The notes beneath the pieces were generated by a model that searched no databases, was not told the origin of the DNA, and worked only from the letters and a program-made list of their open reading frames with translations. Positions 13,803 to 51,771 of a DNA stretch of 64,000 bases are shown here, in pieces. Origin of the DNA: Terrimonas ginsenosidimutans (GTDB lineage Bacteria; Bacteroidota; Bacteroidia; Chitinophagales; Chitinophagaceae). Location of the stretch: NCBI RefSeq assembly GCF_022012415.1, contig NZ_JAKLTR010000009.1, forward strand, positions 186,001 through 250,000, read 5' to 3'. A program made the translations under genes and the position numbers. How positions within the stretch are numbered: the stretch's first letter is position 1; each line of letters opens with the position of its first letter.

Positions 13803-13884
13803 TTTGGAGGGAGGGGTGGAAGTTTGGAAGGTTTCTTAAGTTCCAGACATACCAAACCTCCCAAACCTTCCCTCCCCCCAAACC
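13803..13884. repeat. Inverted repeat of the CCAAACCTCC family
   Basis: The left arm (13803-13834) is rich in GGAGGG and GGTTT. The right arm (13854-13884) reads AAACCTCCCAAACC then a C-rich tail. The arms pair imperfectly. Bases 13850-13870 are identical to 51736-51756, in the copy upstream of the S9 peptidase gene. It lies between the ahcY terminator and the SET-domain gene. Confidence 0.7.
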
Positions 13885-44404: not shown

Positions 44405-45172
44405 TTAGAGGACGCCAGCCAGAAACTCCCGGACAGAACGCTCTTCATCATCACTGTTTTGCAAAGCTTTAACAAAAGCAGTCCCGATAATAGCGCCGTT
44501 TGCATGTGTACCCGCCTGCTGAAAGCTTGCGCGGTCACGGATGCCAAACCCTACCAGCACAGGATTGCGCAGCCGCATCTTCTCCAGCCGTTCGAGGTAA
44601 GCGCCTGCGTCAGCCATATTCTTATCACTGCCGGTGGTGGAAGAGGAGGAAACTGCATACAGGAAACCGGTGCTTAAGCTATCGAGCCTGTGTACCCGGT
44701 CATCACTTGTTTCCGGAGTGACAAGGAATATAAAATCCAGCCCGTGTTTCCTGATAATGGCGCCATATTCTGTCTCAAATTCATATTCAGGCAGATCGGG
44801 AAGAATCAATCCATCCACGCCAACAGCCGCAGCATCTGCACAGAATTTTTCAAACCCATACTGGATCACGGGATTCATATATCCCATCAGTATGAGTGGG
44901 ATATTGCTTTGAGTTCTCAGGTCTTTCAGTTGCTCAAACAGCTTTTTGATCGTCATACCCTGCCCCAGGGAAACAGTGCTGCTTTGTTGTATTACCGGCC
45001 CGTCTGCAAGCGGATCACTGTACGGCATTCCCAGCTCCACAATGTCCGCTCCATGTTTTTCCAATGCTCGGATAACACGAACAGTACTATCCGCCTTCGG
45101 ATACCCCGCCGTGCAGTAAATATTCAATACATTTTTATTCTTGCGTTCAAACAAGCTTTTGATCCTGCTCAT
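44405..45172 (-). CDS. trpA: Tryptophan synthase alpha subunit
   Basis: Cleaves indole-3-glycerol phosphate to indole, which channels to TrpB. The 255-residue TIM barrel shows the catalytic Glu in DIVELGMPYSDPLADGPVIQ, the loop GYMNPVIQYGFEKFC, the Asp-containing DGLILPDLPEYEF and the phosphate-binding GFGIRDRASF. It is the last gene of the minus-strand trp operon. It is separated from trpB by an inserted lipoprotein gene, whereas trpB and trpA are directly adjacent in most bacteria. Spacing to the lipoprotein gene is only 6 bp, so it stays in the operon. Confidence 0.97.
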   Translation of the reverse strand: MSRIKSLFERKNKNVLNIYCTAGYPKADSTVRVIRALEKHGADIVELGMPYSDPLADGPVIQQSSTVSLGQGMTIKKLFEQLKDLRTQSNIPLILMGYMNPVIQYGFEKFCADAAAVGVDGLILPDLPEYEFETEYGAIIRKHGLDFIFLVTPETSDDRVHRLDSLSTGFLYAVSSSSTTGSDKNMADAGAYLERLEKMRLRNPVLVGFGIRDRASFQQAGTHANGAIIGTAFVKALQNSDDEERSVREFLAGVL

Positions 45173-45178
45173 GTATAT

Positions 45179-45553
45179 TTATTTTTCTGAGGTCCTGATA
45201 GGATAGGTCTCATCATCAATAGTTATGTAATCATACCGGGGATAGCTGTCTATATCAAGCGCTACCGTATATCGCGCGGACTCATAAGGCTTTCCAGGCA
45301 AACCAAATTTCACCACTACGGTATCTCCACGGCGTTCGGAAATGATCAGCGATTTATCATACGTTGCCGGCAAACACTTTTCGAATTCATACCGTTCACC
45401 ACCGAAGTTGGAGTTCAGGCGGAACGCCAGTTGAACACCGGCACAATCATCCGCTTTCTTTTCAAGCGATACCTTGTGTTCAACATAGGGCTGCCTGTCA
45501 CAGGCAGTTAAAAGGACAGATGCGGAAAGCACTGCAGCAAGCAAATTCTTCAT
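45179..45553 (-). CDS. Small lipoprotein of unknown function inside the trp operon
   Basis: A 124-residue protein with a lipoprotein signal (MKNLLAAVLSASVLLTA before C18). The mature domain is short and beta-rich, with a cysteine pair (DDCAGVQLAF and FEKCLPATYD) and an end YPRYDYITIDDETYPIRTSE. I do not recognise the family. It sits exactly between trpB (4 bp) and trpA (6 bp) without its own promoter space, so it is expressed with tryptophan genes. An exported lipoprotein has no known place in tryptophan synthesis. Confidence 0.85.
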   Translation of the reverse strand: MKNLLAAVLSASVLLTACDRQPYVEHKVSLEKKADDCAGVQLAFRLNSNFGGERYEFEKCLPATYDKSLIISERRGDTVVVKFGLPGKPYESARYTVALDIDSYPRYDYITIDDETYPIRTSEK

Positions 45554-45557
45554 AGCG

Positions 45558-46748
45558 TTATTTTATGTATTTCATGTAAGTAGCAAGATCCTTGTCTCCC
45601 CTTCCGCTAAGACATACGACCACATGATCATTTTTGCTGAAAGATAATCGTGTTAATGCAGACAACGCATGAGAGCTTTCCAATGCGGGAATGATCCCCT
45701 CCATTTTTGCGAGGTTAAAAGCCGCCTCTACCGCCTCCTGGTCTGTTGCACTAAGAAACTTTGCACGCCCCGTTTCAAAAAGATGCGCATGCAGTGGTCC
45801 GATACCGGGATAGTCCAGTCCTGCAGAAATGCTATGAGGCTCTACGACCTGTCCATCTTCTGTCTGCATCAACAGGCTTTTACTGCCATGCAGGATCCCC
45901 GGGCGGCCCAGTTGTGATGTAGCCGCACTTTGCCCGCTGTTCACGCCAAGACCAGCGGCCTCCACAGCTACCAGTTCCACCTCTTTTTCATCCAGGAAAT
46001 GATAGAATGCCCCGGCGGCATTGCTTCCTCCTCCCACACATGCGACCACTGATGAAGGTAACTCAGTTCCGGTTTTTTCCTTTAACTGCGCGCGGATCTC
46101 TTTGCTGATCACGCTTTGAAAAAGTGTAACCATATCAGGGTATGGATGCGGGCCAACAACACTTCCGATGATATAATGCGTATCATCCGGATGATTGATC
46201 CAGTCGCGGATCGCTTCGTTAGTAGCATCTTTCAATGTTTTACTGCCGGAAAGAGCCGGCACCACGGTAGCACCCAGCATTTTCATCCGTGCAACATTGG
46301 GGGCCTGACGCTCGATATCCTTCTCTCCCATGTACACAATGCACTGAATGCCCTTGAGCGCACAGACGGTGGCAGTGGCCACTCCATGCTGCCCCGCACC
46401 GGTTTCGGCAATGATCCTTTTCTTGCCAAGTTTTTCTGCAAGCAGGATCTGGCCAATGGTGTTATTGATCTTGTGTGCGCCCGTGTGGCAAAGGTCCTCC
46501 CGCTTCAGGTATATATTGGTGCCGAACTGAGCGCTCAATCGTTTTGCAAGATAAAGCGGTGTGGGGCGGCCCGCATAGTCAGCCAGCAACTCATCGAGCT
46601 CCTTTTTAAAAGAAGGATCATTGATGATATCAAGATAACGCGTCTTCAATTCTTCCACGTTCCGGTGCAGCATCTCCGGAATATAGGCCCCTCCGAACGA
46701 TCCGTAATAGCCGTACTCATTAGGCGTTGTATAAGTCTGTTTTTTCAT
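45558..46748 (-). CDS. trpB: Tryptophan synthase beta subunit
   Basis: PLP enzyme joining indole and serine to tryptophan. The 396-residue protein has the PLP lysine in [20 protein letters not shown], the helix [19 protein letters not shown], the phosphate loop [15 protein letters not shown] and the substrate region [14 protein letters not shown]. It starts [20 protein letters not shown], typical for the TrpB1 class that pairs with TrpA. It lies 56 bp downstream of trpF. The alpha subunit gene follows after the intervening lipoprotein gene. Confidence 0.98.
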
Positions 46749-46804
46749 TTCAATAGGTCAGGAAGATCTTCCTGTTTATTTTATTTACGCAAGCAATGTC
46801 TTCA

Positions 46805-47440
46805 TCAGCCTTTCAGGCTTTTTACAAATGCTTCCACTTTATTCATATCCTTGACGCCGGCGGTGATCTCGAAACGGCTATTGATATCTATGGAGAACAA
46901 TTTACGGGCTGCTTCCTCTTTTTGAAATGTCATCAGGGCTGCTTCATCCCCGGGTTCGATCCCCCCACTTAAAAAATAAAGCTTATCAGGGTTCGCCTTA
47001 TTCAACACATTCCAGTCAAATTTCTTTCCCGTTCCCCCATACCCTGCCCCCATTGTATCAAACATGAACATGTCACAGCTTTCCTGGAAAGGCTTTACCA
47101 TCCAGTCAAGCGGATCGTCGTCCGACAAGCGAAACGCTTTTATTACCGTCACGTAATTGGCGACTTTCTCACAAAAGAAAGCCGACTCGTCACCATGCAA
47201 TTGCACCATGTCAAGCCTGTAGTCTTCCACCGTGCGCATCAGTTCTTCATACGGTGTATTGACAAACACACCTACTTTTGCAATCCGGCCCTTGATCTGC
47301 TTCATTTTCTCGGGCGATATTTTATTACCGACATATCTTGGCGATTTCGGATAAAAAATAAACCCGGCGAAATCAACCCCCATTTCATCGAGGGCATTAA
47401 CCTGTTCGGGCAATGTCATCCCGCATACTTTAATTCGCAT
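46805..47440 (-). CDS. trpF: Phosphoribosylanthranilate isomerase
   Basis: Amadori rearrangement of phosphoribosylanthranilate, third step of the pathway. The 211-residue TIM barrel shows the catalytic Cys in MRIKVCGMTLPEQVNALDEM, the strand FAGFIFYPKSPRYVG, LDMVQLHGDESAFFCEKV, the Asp in FMFDTMGAGYGGTGKKFDW, and FSIDINSRFEITAGVKDMNK near the end. It stands as a separate gene rather than a trpCF fusion. A 124-bp gap to trpC carries a repeat (47479-47587), the largest break in the operon besides trpG-trpD. Confidence 0.95.
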   Translation of the reverse strand: MRIKVCGMTLPEQVNALDEMGVDFAGFIFYPKSPRYVGNKISPEKMKQIKGRIAKVGVFVNTPYEELMRTVEDYRLDMVQLHGDESAFFCEKVANYVTVIKAFRLSDDDPLDWMVKPFQESCDMFMFDTMGAGYGGTGKKFDWNVLNKANPDKLYFLSGGIEPGDEAALMTFQKEEAARKLFSIDINSRFEITAGVKDMNKVEAFVKSLKG

Positions 47441-47478
47441 AAGCTCGCTTTGATGATGTTAGATAGCAAGCAATCGTG

Positions 47479-47587
47479 GGGAGGAAAAGTAAAAAGTCAA
47501 AATTAAAAATTAAAAAAAGCCCGTATTTAAGGATGTTCTTTCAAAATAATTAATAAAAAACTTTTTACTTTTTACTTTTTAATTCCC
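47479..47587. repeat. A/T-rich inverted repeat between trpC and trpF, reaching into trpC
   Basis: The left arm (from 47479: GGGGAGGAAAAGTAAAAAGT then CAAAATTAAAAATTAAA) pairs imperfectly with the right arm ending GTACTTTTT-like words and AATTCCCC at about 47587. The right arm supplies the last codons and stop of trpC (E-L-K-S-K-K-stop), so the TrpC C-terminus is repeat-encoded. It shares its words with 37312-37402. Confidence 0.8.
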
Positions 47588-48365
47588 CTACAAATTCTTC
47601 AAATGCCTTTCCGGGATTTTCTTCCTTCATAAATGTTTCGCCGATGAGAAAACCTTTAAATCCTGCCTGTCTTAAAGTTACGATCGTTTCAACATTACTG
47701 ATGCCGCTTTCTGCCACAGCAGGTTTGTTTGTTGGGATCTTGTTGATAAGCCCGAGGGAAATATTGATATCCACTTCAAATGTCTTAAGGTTACGGTTAT
47801 TTACACCAACCATATCCACTTCATCACAGATATGTTCCAGCTCTTCATCATTATGGATCTCAAGCAGCACTTCAAGACCGATGCTTTTTGCGTAGCCTGC
47901 CATGCTTTTCACTTCTGCCGGAGTGAGGCACGCTGCGATCAGGAGGATCACGTCTGCTCCAAAAGCCCGTGCTTCGGCGATCTGCCAGGGATCGATCATA
48001 AAATCCTTGCGGAGAATGGGAACATCGGAGATCACTTTCGCCTGGATCAGGTCATCCAGATCTCCGCCGAAGAATTCCTCATCTGTTAACACAGAAACAC
48101 CGGCTGCGCCGAGATCATTGTATGAACGGACGACGGGTTCCACTTCCAGCTCTTTTGTTTTGAACCAGCCCTTACTCGGACTCTTGCGTTTGAATTCAGC
48201 AATGATCCCGGTGCTGTCTTCAGCCTGCAGGCTTTTCGCGAGGGATCGCGTCGCGATCTCCCAGAAAAATCCATCCCGCTGAAAGCGTTCGATACTGCTG
48301 AGTGCTTTGAATTTTTCGATATGTTTCCGCTTTTCAGCAACGATGGTATCCAGTATTGTACTCAT
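47565..48365 (-). CDS. trpC: Indole-3-glycerol phosphate synthase
   Basis: Ring closure and decarboxylation giving indole-3-glycerol phosphate. The ATG at 48365 gives 266 residues; it overlaps the trpD stop (ATGA), implying coupled translation. Motifs are IIAEFKRKSPSKGW (catalytic Lys), LTDEEFFGGDLDDL, ILRKDFMIDPWQIAEARAFG, VGVNNRNLKTFEVD and AVAESGISNVETI. The end of the protein (ELKSKK) is encoded inside the repeat at 47479-47587. A longer frame to 48392 is rejected because it would overlap trpD more deeply. Confidence 0.97.
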   Translation of the reverse strand: MSTILDTIVAEKRKHIEKFKALSSIERFQRDGFFWEIATRSLAKSLQAEDSTGIIAEFKRKSPSKGWFKTKELEVEPVVRSYNDLGAAGVSVLTDEEFFGGDLDDLIQAKVISDVPILRKDFMIDPWQIAEARAFGADVILLIAACLTPAEVKSMAGYAKSIGLEVLLEIHNDEELEHICDEVDMVGVNNRNLKTFEVDINISLGLINKIPTNKPAVAESGISNVETIVTLRQAGFKGFLIGETFMKEENPGKAFEEFVGELKSKK

Positions 48366-49354
48366 TGTAAAGAAATTAATTTTAGTAAACATTGATATGC
48401 TTTGCCGCTTTCGAGGCTTTCCACAGCAGCGTGATAAGCATCATCATAGTTTGCATATTTACCTGTGCAATGCAGGGCCATCGCTGCATTGGCCAGCACC
48501 ACGGCATTCTGAGCCCATGTGCCCTCCCCTTTTATGATGGACGCAAAGATCTTCGCTGCTTCCTCCGGTGTTTTTCCTCCCTGGAGATCCGAAGCAGACA
48601 CCATGCGTTTTCCTAATTGCTCCGGCGTCATGATCCTCTCACCGTGCTGGGTGATCACTTTTGTATCGTTGGTCAGTGAGATCTCATCATATCCATCCAA
48701 CCCGTGAATGATCGTAAATGGCCGCCCGTTATGCTGCAAGAAATAATTGTATACACGGGCCATTTCCAGGCTGAATACTCCCACCAGCTGATAAGCAGGA
48801 TCAGCGGGATTTACCATCGGCCCAAGCATGTTAAAAAAAGTACGCATGCCCAGGTTGCGGCGGATAGGACCGACTGTTTTCAAAGCAGGATGAAATAAGG
48901 GTGCGTGAAGAAAACAAATTCCCGCCTGTTCAACTTCGTTTTGCAACTGTGCATTATCCTGTTTGAATTTATAGCCAAGCTGCTCCATCACATTGGATGC
49001 ACCGCTCACAGACGAAGCGCCATAGTTACCATGCTTGGCTACCGGCTGACCGGCGCCTGCCACGATAAAGCAACTGAGCGTTGAAATATTGAACGTGTCT
49101 TTACCGTCACCGCCCGTGCCCACGATATCAACCGTCTGAAACCCATCCAGCTTCACCGGCACACACAGCTCCAGCAGCGCATCCCTGAACCCCTGAAGCT
49201 CTTCTATCGTGATGCTGCGCATCAGATAGACCGTCATGAATGCAGTAACCTCATGTTCGTTATAAATGCCTTTCCCTATGTTCACAAGTGCTTCCTTCGC
49301 AAGAGTGCGGGGGAGCGTCTTGTGCTCGAAAAGGTAGGTTAGGATCTTTTTCAT
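48362..49354 (-). CDS. trpD: Anthranilate phosphoribosyltransferase
   Basis: Transfers phosphoribose from PRPP to anthranilate. The 330-residue enzyme shows the PRPP loop VDIVGTGGDGKDTFNIST, the KHGNYGASSVSGASNVMEQL segment, the metal pair region MARVYNYFLQ and HGLDGYDEISLTNDTKV. The stop overlaps trpC by four bases. Upstream lies a 130-bp gap to trpG, and a short perfect hairpin (49361-49375) ends only 6 nt before the start codon. It might affect trpD translation. Confidence 0.97.
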   Translation of the reverse strand: MKKILTYLFEHKTLPRTLAKEALVNIGKGIYNEHEVTAFMTVYLMRSITIEELQGFRDALLELCVPVKLDGFQTVDIVGTGGDGKDTFNISTLSCFIVAGAGQPVAKHGNYGASSVSGASNVMEQLGYKFKQDNAQLQNEVEQAGICFLHAPLFHPALKTVGPIRRNLGMRTFFNMLGPMVNPADPAYQLVGVFSLEMARVYNYFLQHNGRPFTIIHGLDGYDEISLTNDTKVITQHGERIMTPEQLGKRMVSASDLQGGKTPEEAAKIFASIIKGEGTWAQNAVVLANAAMALHCTGKYANYDDAYHAAVESLESGKAYQCLLKLISLQ

Positions 49355-49360
49355 ATTGCG

Positions 49361-49375
49361 ATCCCGGAACGGGAT
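49361..49375 (-). promoter_or_regulatory. Small hairpin just before the trpD start codon
   Basis: ATCCCG-GAA-CGGGAT forms a 6-bp stem with a 3-nt loop, located 6 nt upstream of the trpD ATG on the minus strand. It occupies the place of a ribosome-binding region, so a translational effect is possible but unproven. Confidence 0.4.
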
Positions 49376-49484
49376 TTGTTTAGTTTTAAATTATACTATT
49401 TCAATATTGTATGCCGTGAGATAGTTCCATGTTCTGTCAAGCCGCCAGTCCCATTGATCCAGCAGATCGAAATTCCAGGATTTG

Positions 49485-50051
49485 TTATTTCAGCCAATTC
49501 CGCAATATAGTCTCTCCCTGCGGCGTCAACACACTCTCCGGATGAAACTGCACTCCTTTCACATCAAATTTTTTATGTTGCATCGCCATGATCATTCCGT
49601 TTGCATCCCTGGCAGTGATCTCAAGCTCGGCAGGCAATCCTTTCTCTGCTACGATCCAGCTATGATATCTTCCCACTTCGAACTCTTCCGGCAATCCGTC
49701 AAAGAGATCGGCCTTAATGGCGGTCTTTTGTACGGGTGTTGCCACTCCGTGATACACCGTACTAAGGTTCTCCAATGTTCCTCCAAAGGATTCTCCGATC
49801 GCCTGGTGCCCAAGGCATACACCAAGTATGGATTTGCTGGAAGCGTATTCTTTGATCAGCGGCAAAAGTAAACCTGCCTCCGACGGAACTCCAGGACCTG
49901 GAGAAAGAATGATCTTATCATACTCTTTTACTTTTTCCAGCGGCAACTGATCATTCCGGTGTACATCCACACGCTGATGCAGGATCTTTTCAACGAGATG
50001 CACAAGGTTATAGGTAAATGAATCATAGTTATCGAAAACAAGCACTTTCAT
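49485..50051 (-). CDS. trpG: Anthranilate synthase component II (glutamine amidotransferase)
   Basis: Supplies ammonia from glutamine to TrpE. From the ATG at 50051 there are 188 residues (a GTG at 50057 would add two). The class I amidotransferase triad is visible: Cys in SILGVCLGHQAIGESFGG and His-x-Glu in VKGVQFHPESVLTPQG. The oxyanion loop is in IILSPGPGVPSEAG and the N-terminal strand in MKVLVFDNYDSFTYNLVHLV. It follows trpE after 52 bp. Proteins of this type may also serve PabB; its operon position argues for tryptophan synthesis. Confidence 0.97.
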   Translation of the reverse strand: MKVLVFDNYDSFTYNLVHLVEKILHQRVDVHRNDQLPLEKVKEYDKIILSPGPGVPSEAGLLLPLIKEYASSKSILGVCLGHQAIGESFGGTLENLSTVYHGVATPVQKTAIKADLFDGLPEEFEVGRYHSWIVAEKGLPAELEITARDANGMIMAMQHKKFDVKGVQFHPESVLTPQGETILRNWLK

Positions 50052-50103
50052 ATTCACACAAGTTGGGGTTACGCGCTTTGATTATTCTGTATTAATTCGT
50101 TTC

Positions 50104-51519
50104 TCAATTGATCGCCTCAGCAAAACTGATGGCCTTTTTTAATGCCCCGAGTTTATTATTAACTTCCTGCAGTTCGCTTTCGGGTTGTGATGCAGCAACA
50201 ACGCCTGCGCCAGCCTGATAATATAAGGTATTGTCACGGCTGAGAAAAGTCCGGATCATGATCGCATGATTGCAGCTTCCGTTGAAGCCCATGAATCCGA
50301 TCGCACCACCATAATATCCCCGTTGGGTCGGCTCATACTGATCGATCAATTCCATCGCTTTGAATTTAGGTGCGCCACTGAGCGTACCAGCGGGAAATGT
50401 TTTCGCCACGAGCTCAAACGGATTGCTGTCCTTCCTGACAGTACCCGTAACCTCGCTTACAAGATGGATCACATGCGAGAAGAACTGCACCTGTCTGAAT
50501 TGAGCCACAGTGACATTATCGCACAAACGGCTGAGATCATTTCGCGCAAGATCGACCAGCATCACATGCTCGGCATTTTCTTTTGAATCCTGCAGCAATC
50601 TTGCCGCAGCCTGTTCATCCAGTACATCATCGCCGGTTCTTTTGAACGTACCTGCAATCGGATGAACGATCGCTTTACCATTGCTGATCACCAATTGGGA
50701 TTCAGGCGAAGAACCCATCAGCTTATAATCACCATAGTCGAAAAAGAAAAGATAGGGAGAAGGATTGATGCTGCGTAAAGCCCGGTATACATTGAATTCA
50801 TCACCAGTAAAGGATTGTTTGAATCTACGGCTCAGCACGATCTGAAATACATCGCCGCGAAGACAACTCGCAATTCCTTTTTTCACCATCTGGCGATATG
50901 TTTCGTCTTCCATATTGGACGATTCGTCACCGGAAACAGCAAACGGGTATACCGGCACATCCTTGCTGCGGATCAGCGATTCCAATAATGGCAGCTCGCT
51001 TTCCACACCCGTTACCTTATTCTCGCAAATGAACAACTCATCTTTAAAATGATTGATGGCGATCACGTACTGATAAAGCCGGTAGCGCATCAGTGGAATG
51101 GCATTAGCTCCATTTTTATCCGCAAACTGAATGGTATCGAAGAACTGAACCGCATCATAGGTTGTGTAACCATACAGCCCCTGGGCAAATGCCGTTTCTT
51201 TCTCTTTTCCGGGTTCGATAGAGAAGCGTTGCATGAATTCCCACAGGATCCCCGGTACAGCTTCCGTCTTGCTGATAGCAGCCTTCTCCGGCGCCTGTCC
51301 CGGCAGCTTGAATTCGATGCTGCTTGTATTACTGATCTCAATACCTGCGATCGCATTGATGCAGATGAACGAATAGCTGTTCTCCGTCGCATGAAAGTCT
51401 GTGCTTTCGAGCAGGATAGTATCCCTGAACCGGTCACGCAGCCGCAGATAGATCCCAACAGGCGTGAACACGTCTGCGAGCATTCTTTTACAAGTAGTAT
51501 TGATCGTAATTTTTTTCAT
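50104..51519 (-). CDS. trpE: Anthranilate synthase component I
   Basis: Converts chorismate to anthranilate with TrpG, first committed step. The 471-residue chorismate-binding enzyme has DVFQIVLSRRFKQSFTGDEF, SPSPYLFFFDYG-like NPSPYLFFFDYGDYKLMGSS, VHPIAGTFKRTGDD, the metal Glu region AEHVMLVDLARNDLSRLCDN, and TLSGAPKFKAMELIDQYEPT followed by QRGYYGGAIGFM. The N-terminal feedback site with LLES (TILLESTDFHA) is the Ser-containing tryptophan-binding element, so end-product inhibition is likely. The ATG at 51519 lies only 5 nt after the T-run of the leader terminator. Confidence 0.97.
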   Translation of the reverse strand: MKKITINTTCKRMLADVFTPVGIYLRLRDRFRDTILLESTDFHATENSYSFICINAIAGIEISNTSSIEFKLPGQAPEKAAISKTEAVPGILWEFMQRFSIEPGKEKETAFAQGLYGYTTYDAVQFFDTIQFADKNGANAIPLMRYRLYQYVIAINHFKDELFICENKVTGVESELPLLESLIRSKDVPVYPFAVSGDESSNMEDETYRQMVKKGIASCLRGDVFQIVLSRRFKQSFTGDEFNVYRALRSINPSPYLFFFDYGDYKLMGSSPESQLVISNGKAIVHPIAGTFKRTGDDVLDEQAAARLLQDSKENAEHVMLVDLARNDLSRLCDNVTVAQFRQVQFFSHVIHLVSEVTGTVRKDSNPFELVAKTFPAGTLSGAPKFKAMELIDQYEPTQRGYYGGAIGFMGFNGSCNHAIMIRTFLSRDNTLYYQAGAGVVAASQPESELQEVNNKLGALKKAISFAEAIN

Positions 51520-51524
51520 ATAAA

Positions 51525-51606
51525 TAAAAAAGCCCCGAACACTGTCGGGGCTGAATATGTTGAAATAAACATAGCGATGACATTACAAACCCCGTTGAAC
51601 GTTTGT
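51525..51606 (-). promoter_or_regulatory. trp attenuator: competing leader, anti-terminator and terminator helices
   Basis: Terminator: minus-strand AGCCCCG (51546-51552) with CGGGGCT (51531-51537), then six T (51525-51530). Anti-terminator: the same AGCCCCG can pair instead with CGGGGTT (51588-51594), one G-T pair. Leader helix: ACAAAC (51601-51606) with GTTTGT (51585-51590) would block the anti-terminator strand. A ribosome stalled at the Trp codons (51610-51618) would cover 51601-51606, freeing 51588-51594. All segments of classical Trp-codon attenuation are therefore present. Pairing read by eye; no energies calculated. Confidence 0.88.
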
Positions 51607-51645
51607 TTGCCACCACCACTGAATATTTACCTGTTGTTTAATCAT
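51583..51645 (-). CDS. trpL: trp operon leader peptide with three consecutive Trp codons
   Basis: ATG 51645 to TAA 51583 encodes a 20-residue peptide, MIKQQVNIQWWWQTNVQRGL. Three adjacent TGG codons (51610-51618) in a 20-codon frame, just before the operon's terminator, are the mark of a leader peptide read as a tryptophan sensor. When charged tRNA-Trp is scarce the ribosome should pause here and allow the anti-terminator to form. The start codon lies 8 nt beyond the -7-like promoter element CATATTTG, so the message may be leaderless or nearly so. No Shine-Dalgarno sequence is present. Probably no function for the peptide itself. Confidence 0.9.
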   Translation of the reverse strand: MIKQQVNIQWWWQTNVQRGL

Positions 51646-51653
51646 TATACCTG

Positions 51654-51685
51654 CAAATATGTAGAAGCAAATTGATTTGAGCAAA
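51654..51685 (-). promoter_or_regulatory. Predicted trp operon promoter
   Basis: On the minus strand a -33 TTTG (51682-51685) is followed after 20 nt by CATATTTG (51654-51661), one base off TAnnTTTG. The start of transcription should fall around 51646-51650, immediately before the trpL ATG. Confidence 0.6.
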
Positions 51686-51697
51686 AAAAGTTTTAAG

Positions 51698-51771
51698 GGA
51701 TTGGGGGAGAGAGAAGGTTTTGGAGGTTTCACAGGTACCAAACCTCCCAAACCTTCTCTCTCCCCCAATCC
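51698..51771. repeat. 32-bp inverted repeat of the CCAAACCTCC family between divergent promoters
   Basis: The left arm 51698-51729 (GGATTGGGGGAGAGAGAAGG then TTTTGGAGGTTT) pairs with 51740-51771 with one mismatch around a 10-nt loop. Bases 51736-51756 are identical to 13850-13870. It separates the trp promoter from the S9 peptidase gene, which are divergent, so it does not terminate either. Confidence 0.92.

Follow-up and report, generated by a model that had tools for sequence, protein, structure and literature searches.

The attenuator of the enterobacterial trp operon is represented in Rfam by Trp_leader (RF00513) and follows a four-segment logic, which is shared by the locus described here. 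For Bacteroidota, the Bacteroidete tryptophan peptide leader RNA (RF01692, Bacteroid-trp) goes back to a motif survey of 2010, where it is listed in Table 1 (PMC2864571). In F. psychrophilum RF01692 is reported upstream of trp (PMC6414381), and clues for leader-peptide attenuation are mentioned upstream of amino-acid operons of this organism (PMC9723704). A first-pass annotation of the present locus recognized the architecture of ribosome-mediated attenuation, known best from Gammaproteobacteria, and inferred that it works here too. This is no unexpected extension, as such leaders are already catalogued for the phylum (RF01692; PMC2864571, PMC6414381).

The DNA analyzed here, called the window, is a stretch of 64,000 nucleotides from Terrimonas ginsenosidimutans, and coordinates refer to it unless stated otherwise. 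On its minus strand it carries a seemingly complete trp operon in the order trpE, trpG, trpD, trpC, trpF, trpB, a 124-aa ORF and trpA, where the trp gene names downstream of trpE were taken from Pfam domains and gene order. The leader of about 125 nt is bordered by trpE on one side and, on the other, by a divergent gene whose product has an S9 peptidase domain. The individual features are:

51654 to 51684, minus strand: predicted promoter of the Bacteroidota type, from the sequence (−33 element TTG at 51684–51682, 24 nt, −7 box TTTG at 51657–51654)
51648 to 51650, minus strand: predicted transcript start, G51650 or A51648, by analogy with the F. psychrophilum promoters (PMC9723704)
51583 to 51645, minus strand: trp leader ORF of 20 codons, from the sequence (ATG at 51645, TAA at 51585–51583; MIKQQVNIQWWWQTNVQRGL)
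51610 to 51618, minus strand: three consecutive Trp codons (TGG), the putative sensor, from the sequence
51601 to 51618, minus strand: segment 1, the 5′ arm of the protector hairpin including the Trp codons, from fold and pair counts
51588 to 51594, minus strand: segment 2, the anti-terminator strand CGGGGTT, from fold, per-locus duplexes and pair counts
51572 to 51590, minus strand: 3′ arm of the protector hairpin, holding the leader stop codon, from fold and pair counts
51545 to 51552, minus strand: segment 3, AGCCCCGA, partner of segment 2 or segment 4, from fold, per-locus duplexes and pair counts
51526 to 51538, minus strand: segment 4 with the T-run, the 3′ half of the terminator, −14.6 kcal/mol, with pair counts
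50104 to 51519, minus strand: trpE, heading the operon that is presumably regulated (Pfam PF00425 and PF04715; ATG at 51519)
44405 to 50057, minus strand: trpG, trpD, trpC, trpF, trpB, the 124-aa ORF and trpA, from Pfam

The 20-codon frame with its three adjacent TGG codons, the terminator with T-run just before trpE and the distance of 8 nt from the −7 element to the leader ATG had been noted in the first-pass annotation and are all found in the sequence. The terminator pairs 51552–51545 with 51538–51531, its T-run covers 51531–51526, and 6 nt separate the T-run from the trpE ATG. Two side observations concern the surroundings. The 124-aa ORF between trpB and trpA (45179–45553, minus strand), for which Pfam gave no match at 1e-5, has a lipoprotein-like start, MKNLLAAVLSASVLLTAC. 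An inverted repeat (51698–51771) with 32-nt arms of 97% complementarity is situated between the trp promoter and the gene for the divergent peptidase, and a partial second copy of it, with 81% identity, is located at contig position 199827–199884 (window 13827–13884); matches to micro-RNA families at this repeat were taken as artefacts.

The RNA of the leader (51649–51527) folds at −41.2 kcal/mol, compared to −23.2 ± 3.3 kcal/mol for 200 dinucleotide shuffles (z −5.5, 0/200), and two hairpins dominate, the protector and the terminator. The protector (51618–51601 with 51590–51572) amounts to −18.8 kcal/mol (z −4.5). Its inner part of 6 bp (51606–51601 with 51590–51585) had been recognized before, while 11 more pairs of an outer part (51618–51608 with 51582–51572) had been missed. 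These draw on the Trp codons: UGGUGGUGGCA represents the Trp codons themselves, and its partner UGUCAUCGCUA lies downstream of the leader stop codon. The anti-terminator, which had likewise been proposed, pairs 51594–51588 with 51552–51546 over 7 bp and competes with the terminator.

To imitate a stalled ribosome the RNA before 51600 was masked, i.e. the fold was started at 51600. Once segment 3 has been completed, the minimum-energy fold is then the anti-terminator (−10.7 to −11.3 kcal/mol). It gives way to the terminator, favored with −17.5 to −17.8 kcal/mol, when segment 4 is complete as well. The first-pass annotation had suggested folding both states; the predicted folds are protector plus terminator in the whole leader and the anti-terminator in the masked RNA. 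As the terminator (−17.8 kcal/mol) outweighs helix 2:3 (−11.3 kcal/mol) at equilibrium, anti-termination must rest on timing, that is on the order of synthesis. In classical attenuators anti-termination is likewise set by the order of synthesis. Sequence and fold together provide the features by which a leader-peptide attenuator is recognized: a Trp-rich leader ORF (3 of 20 codons are TGG, and adjacent), an anti-terminator and an intrinsic terminator that exclude each other, and a protector (51618–51572) which, in the predicted fold, a stalled ribosome could open.

By sequence and comparison we show a leader ORF, the mutually exclusive predicted helices 1:2, 2:3 and 3:4, a terminator and a promoter-like element. 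Very probably, the locus attenuates transcription of the trp operon in a ribosome-mediated manner. RNA polymerase would start approximately 3–5 nt before the leader AUG, and a ribosome would load at the 5′ end without Shine-Dalgarno pairing. With ample Trp-tRNA it would pass the UGG codons and run on to the leader stop codon, which lies within the protector's 3′ arm; segment 2 would become unavailable and the terminator 3:4 could form. In the absence of translation hairpin 1:2 would hold segment 2 in and near its loop, so that the terminator may form as well. If Trp-tRNA is scarce, the ribosome would stall on UGG and open the protector that includes these codons; segment 2 could then pair with segment 3 while segment 4 is still to be synthesized, and RNA polymerase would continue into trpE. 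That a T-box or a Trp-binding protein acts in place of the ribosome is very improbable. No T-box or other Rfam family reached its cut-off at the trp leader, the one match listed for the whole window being an SRP RNA elsewhere, and the Trp codons are part of the protector, as control by a ribosome needs.

We compared the regions upstream of trpE within the family Chitinophagaceae. The set consists of the best 80 of 582 loci from a scan of public genomes, with TrpE relatives of 63–87% identity, and of the window, giving 81 loci. The strict rule was to possess an ORF with adjacent Trp codons at most 420 nt upstream of trpE. It is satisfied in 71 of the 81 loci and, as a control, in 5 of 328 ordinary ORFs of the window's own genome (trpE of the window is a sixth match and was excluded). 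By this comparison the proposal that ribosome-mediated attenuation works here is well supported. Relatives that conserve trpE with neither TGG codons nor helices had been named beforehand as the case that would speak against it; the 80 family loci and 49 other loci examined left the proposal standing.

Six of the other ten family loci, read by eye, have a like arrangement with a single Trp codon (L044, L057, L067, L068, L069, L072). Promoter, near-5′ ATG and terminator are kept in these (e.g. ...NNGWH...), which would make them one-codon sensors. L078 has Trp-Arg-Trp (WRW) in place of adjacent Trp codons. In L002 (1835–1948) WWW is kept and there is no ATG at the usual place; GTG and ATA follow the −7 box at 4 nt and 7 nt, respectively. 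A covariance model built from 61 leaders (see below) matches nine of the ten, L026 among them at approximately 340–460 nt upstream of trpE with 78 bits; L077, where the stretch begins inside trpE, was left out of the model search. In per-locus searches, performed without shuffle control, 69 of the 71 leaders showed a terminator at or below −9.8 kcal/mol, and 67 a 2:3 duplex at or below −7 kcal/mol.

The residues after WWW look conserved, HTNS.RGL occurring in many relatives, which would suit a nascent-peptide sensor like TnaC. In such a sensor the ribosome is arrested, in response to free tryptophan, by the leader peptide that it is making, and the sequence of this peptide is important. The conserved stretch, however, behaves as RNA. 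Many leaders read segment 2 as RGL and others as GVL, and in L036, L042 and L047 it starts within the stop codon; its RNA, GGGG..UGUAAUG, persists despite these changes of frame, which argues against an arrest peptide. The leaders of another family carry other residues (NNLRQSS). We therefore consider a TnaC-like sensor very improbable and hold to the stalling of a ribosome on the Trp codons.

For the analysis of covariation ten divergent leaders were dropped before the alignment (L039, L046, L048, L061, L073–L076, L079 and L080). The remaining 61, trimmed from the start codon to the T-run, are 109–133 nt long; trimming was manual for L011 and L050, in the latter case without an ATG. In the terminator 3:4, 96.9% of the cells are paired compared to 36–66% in slid versions, and 33 double-changed cells stand against 10.7 in shuffles (0/500). 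Together with the TGG runs in 71 of 81 loci, this answers the suggestion of the first-pass annotation to look for conserved codons and compensatory changes in relatives. The protector 1:2 is paired in 81.5% of the cells (slid versions 33–58%) and has 12 double-changed cells, compared to 5.9 in shuffles and 6–20 in slid versions. Since the UGG codons hold one arm constant, its covariation is weak, and most changes affect a single side (C to U opposite G, A to G opposite U). For the anti-terminator 2:3 the values are 73.5% paired, the best of all slides, and 7 double-changed cells vs 2.7 in shuffles (4/500). A slide by −3 columns yields 13 double-changed cells, but with only 31% paired, so that the support for 2:3 rests more on joint changes in individual loci, such as GAGG/CCTC in segments 2 and 3 of L040, L043 and L045 and GTTAGGG/CCCTAAC in L055.

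TrpE was present at the threshold in 170 out of 198 genomes of a sample of the phylum. From these, 49 loci besides the window were considered (L082–L110 and L127–L146), 5 from the same family, 39 from the same order or class and 5 picked from other classes. A short ORF with W-W or W.W was found in 5 of 5, 37 of 39 (by the automatic rule) and 4 of 5 of these loci, respectively, and the two failures of the automatic rule, L098 and L108, contain WLW. A protector fold with z ≤ −2 occurs in 52 of 70 leaders of the family set and in 3 of 5 sampled genomes of the same family, compared to 12 of 37 in the same order or class and 1 of 4 in other classes. Beyond the family, folding gives little support to the protector.

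The 61-leader model found 50 of 68 trp loci outside its training set at a printed E ≤ 0.01, some of which are close relatives of training loci. On the his and phe loci of the window's own genome (L115 and L196) it gave nothing up to E 0.1. With 150 of 2063 first-look candidates scored, the own genome contains one match to this model and no second copy of the attenuator. Five other pattern matches (L234–L238) were noted in this genome; L234 and L238 were rejected, as no in-frame ATG precedes their TGG run.

A further aspect is the start of the message. In the window the leader ATG follows the −7 box TTTG (G at 51654) by 8 nt. In mapped promoters of F. psychrophilum the −7 box TAnnTTTG occupies positions −12 to −5 (PMC9723704), which places +1 at the fifth base after TTTG. 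The base at this exact position is T51649, so that G51650 or A51648 is likelier and a 5′ untranslated region (UTR) of 3–5 nt is predicted. The peptide, which the first-pass annotation described as leaderless-looking, is thereby predicted to be near-leaderless, not strictly leaderless.

Among the 71 family loci the gap between TTTG and ATG is 4–9 nt in 65 with the in-frame ATG that suits the box best. Several in-frame ATGs exist in 8 of the 71 loci, and the count was redone with neutral rules, giving 61 of 71 when the ATG closest to the Trp codons is used and 63 of 71 for the 5′-most ATG. Such gaps would correspond to a predicted 5′ UTR of 0–5 nt. The gap is exactly 7 nt in 42 of the 71 loci (39 by the neutral rules). 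Of these 42, 35 have a purine at the predicted +1, with 31 times G and 4 times A, suggesting 5′ ends such as GCA-AUG. In 61 of 65 loci a TTG stands at the spacing of a −33 element, 14–27 nt ahead of the −7 TTTG, and in 46 of them at 23–24 nt.

As a baseline for the own genome the −7 box alone was counted in 340 ORFs from the window and 20 further stretches (L210–L229), since strict −33/−7 promoters upstream of ordinary ORFs are too few (11 of 296). At a gap of 4–9 nt, 31 of the 340 ordinary ORFs have plain TTTG and 18 have TAnnTTTG. TAnnTTTG exactly 4 nt before the ATG occurs in 10 of the 340, no other gap between 0 and 40 nt is seen more than 6 times, and this peak suggests a set of truly leaderless genes. 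Otherwise leaderless genes or very short UTRs are rare where measured, with 5.5% in F. psychrophilum (PMC9723704) and 3.7% of UTRs under 10 nt in B. thetaiotaomicron (PMC7366714).

Alternatively, transcription could start further upstream and the ribosome load on a normal 5′ UTR, with attenuation otherwise the same. The T at the exact predicted +1 of the window would fit this, and so do the trp leaders of another family of the same class (f5), where the gap is 16–30 nt in 12 of 18 (16–20 nt in 11, 30 nt in one) and 4–7 nt in 6, showing that a longer UTR works elsewhere in the phylum. Across the wider order or class the gap is bimodal, with 17 of 37 loci at 4–10 nt, 13 at 16–21 nt, one at 30 nt and 6 without TTTG in range. 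While one must keep in mind that the ATG choice outside the neutral recount (the best fit to the box in the family, an ATG with TTTG 3–10 nt before it in the wider order or class, the smallest gap for his and phe) always favors short gaps, the conservation of 4–9 nt in the family under each choice of ATG, the purine at the predicted +1 and the separate leaderless-like peak of the own genome all speak against a longer UTR. For the window it is therefore unlikely, and a near-leaderless leader peptide is the reading we prefer.

The same design was looked for in other amino-acid operons. A His-rich ORF (lax rule) lies upstream of hisG in all 16 loci, hisG being present in 16 of 29 genomes, and 10 of the 16 have TTTG 4–10 nt before the ATG; the locus of the own genome (L115) belongs to these only with the upstream of two ATGs. 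The gene for prephenate dehydratase was present in 12 of 24 genomes. A Phe-rich ORF precedes it in 10 of these 12 loci, with a gap of 3–9 nt in 8 of the 10. A hairpin of −12 kcal/mol or better before a T-rich stretch, 47–71 nt past the stop codon, was found in 24 out of 24 his and phe leaders (no shuffle control), L111 and L113 having been excluded from the 26 as doubtful. Near-leaderless spacing like that of the trp leader is seen among relatives in the majority of phe leaders and in many his leaders. The own genome provides one example of each. On contig C64, at about 130 kb, a Phe/Tyr-rich leader, MALVKAYTRFYFYFFFTMKPGTLCLSLS, with a terminator and near-leaderless spacing lies upstream of the prephenate dehydratase gene (L196), and on contig C13 a His leader, ...LHIHHHHLAKR, with a terminator lies upstream of hisG (L115).

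For ilv no leader was found in 21 ilvD loci if TTTG was required within 16 nt. Without the box the rule flags an Ile/Leu/Val-rich ORF in 6 of the 21 (L148, L150, L153, L154, L156 and L165), none with TTTG at most 10 nt from the ATG. The match in L165 looks like chance, and L149 could not be oriented. Where ilv leaders are present their spacing is longer or atypical. No Thr/Ile-rich ORF was obtained from 25 homoserine-dehydrogenase loci, several of which have the gene start near the edge of the stretch, and LeuA is present in 4 of 24 genomes.

From the promoter position we infer where the sensors of the family are placed relative to the 5′ end. We lean slightly towards the view that in Chitinophagaceae the AUGs of trp, phe and many his leaders lie approximately 0–6 nt from the transcript start, with the ribosome loaded from the 5′ end as a rule, and that family f5 would use the same trp sensor mostly with a UTR of about 12–16 nt. 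If this is true, the near-5′ AUG would represent a standing way of keeping RNA polymerase and the first ribosome in step, in a phylum where Shine-Dalgarno pairing is hardly used.

A comparison with the known families places the locus near RF01692, with which it shares the phylum, the gene and the place of the Trp-codon leader ORF. RF01692 has a cut-off of 49 bits and reaches 21.5 bits at the window, with E 3 for 201 bases. This sub-threshold alignment is located at the trp leader and puts AUG on AUG and UGG on UGG; it differs in that it ends at segment 3, without the second half of the terminator. Three of eight trp loci scanned are over the cut-off with 75–76 bits (L090, L095, L101), and L110 misses it narrowly (42.7 bits). 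The −7 TTTG of the three positive loci lies 18, 5 and 17 nt from the ATG, respectively, and the 61-leader model matches L090 and L101 at overlapping places. RF00513 reaches 21.0 bits at the window, below its cut-off of 41. In view of RF01692 and the F. psychrophilum reports, as far as these sources describe them, this kind of attenuator is already known in the phylum, and the window represents a divergent branch missed by RF01692. The present description fills this gap in annotation, which also concerns the close relatives L001 and L003 (33–34 bits).

In the open-licence literature we found no description of near-leaderless attenuators in Bacteroidota, nor of sensors placed at the 5′ end throughout a family. 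If the near-leaderless start is confirmed, the leader would provide a natural system to study how, in bacteria without Shine-Dalgarno pairing, initiation at the 5′ end links RNA polymerase and the first ribosome, with relatives that combine the same sensor and a longer UTR as controls. As to the idea of the first-pass annotation that a leaderless sensor peptide would be a distinct variant, a leaderless Trp leader peptide is known in Sinorhizobium meliloti. The transcript of the trp attenuator there (trpL, peptide peTrpL) is reported to start at the leader ATG (PMC7298713). S. meliloti is an Alphaproteobacterium and its leader is exactly leaderless, whereas 3–5 nt are predicted for the window. 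The leaderless polycysteine short ORFs of mycobacteria, summarized in a review (PMC9031893), are a leaderless sensor used as an amino-acid attenuator as well; they differ in the amino acid, cysteine, and belong to another phylum. As far as these sources describe the two cases, both halves of our observation have precedents.
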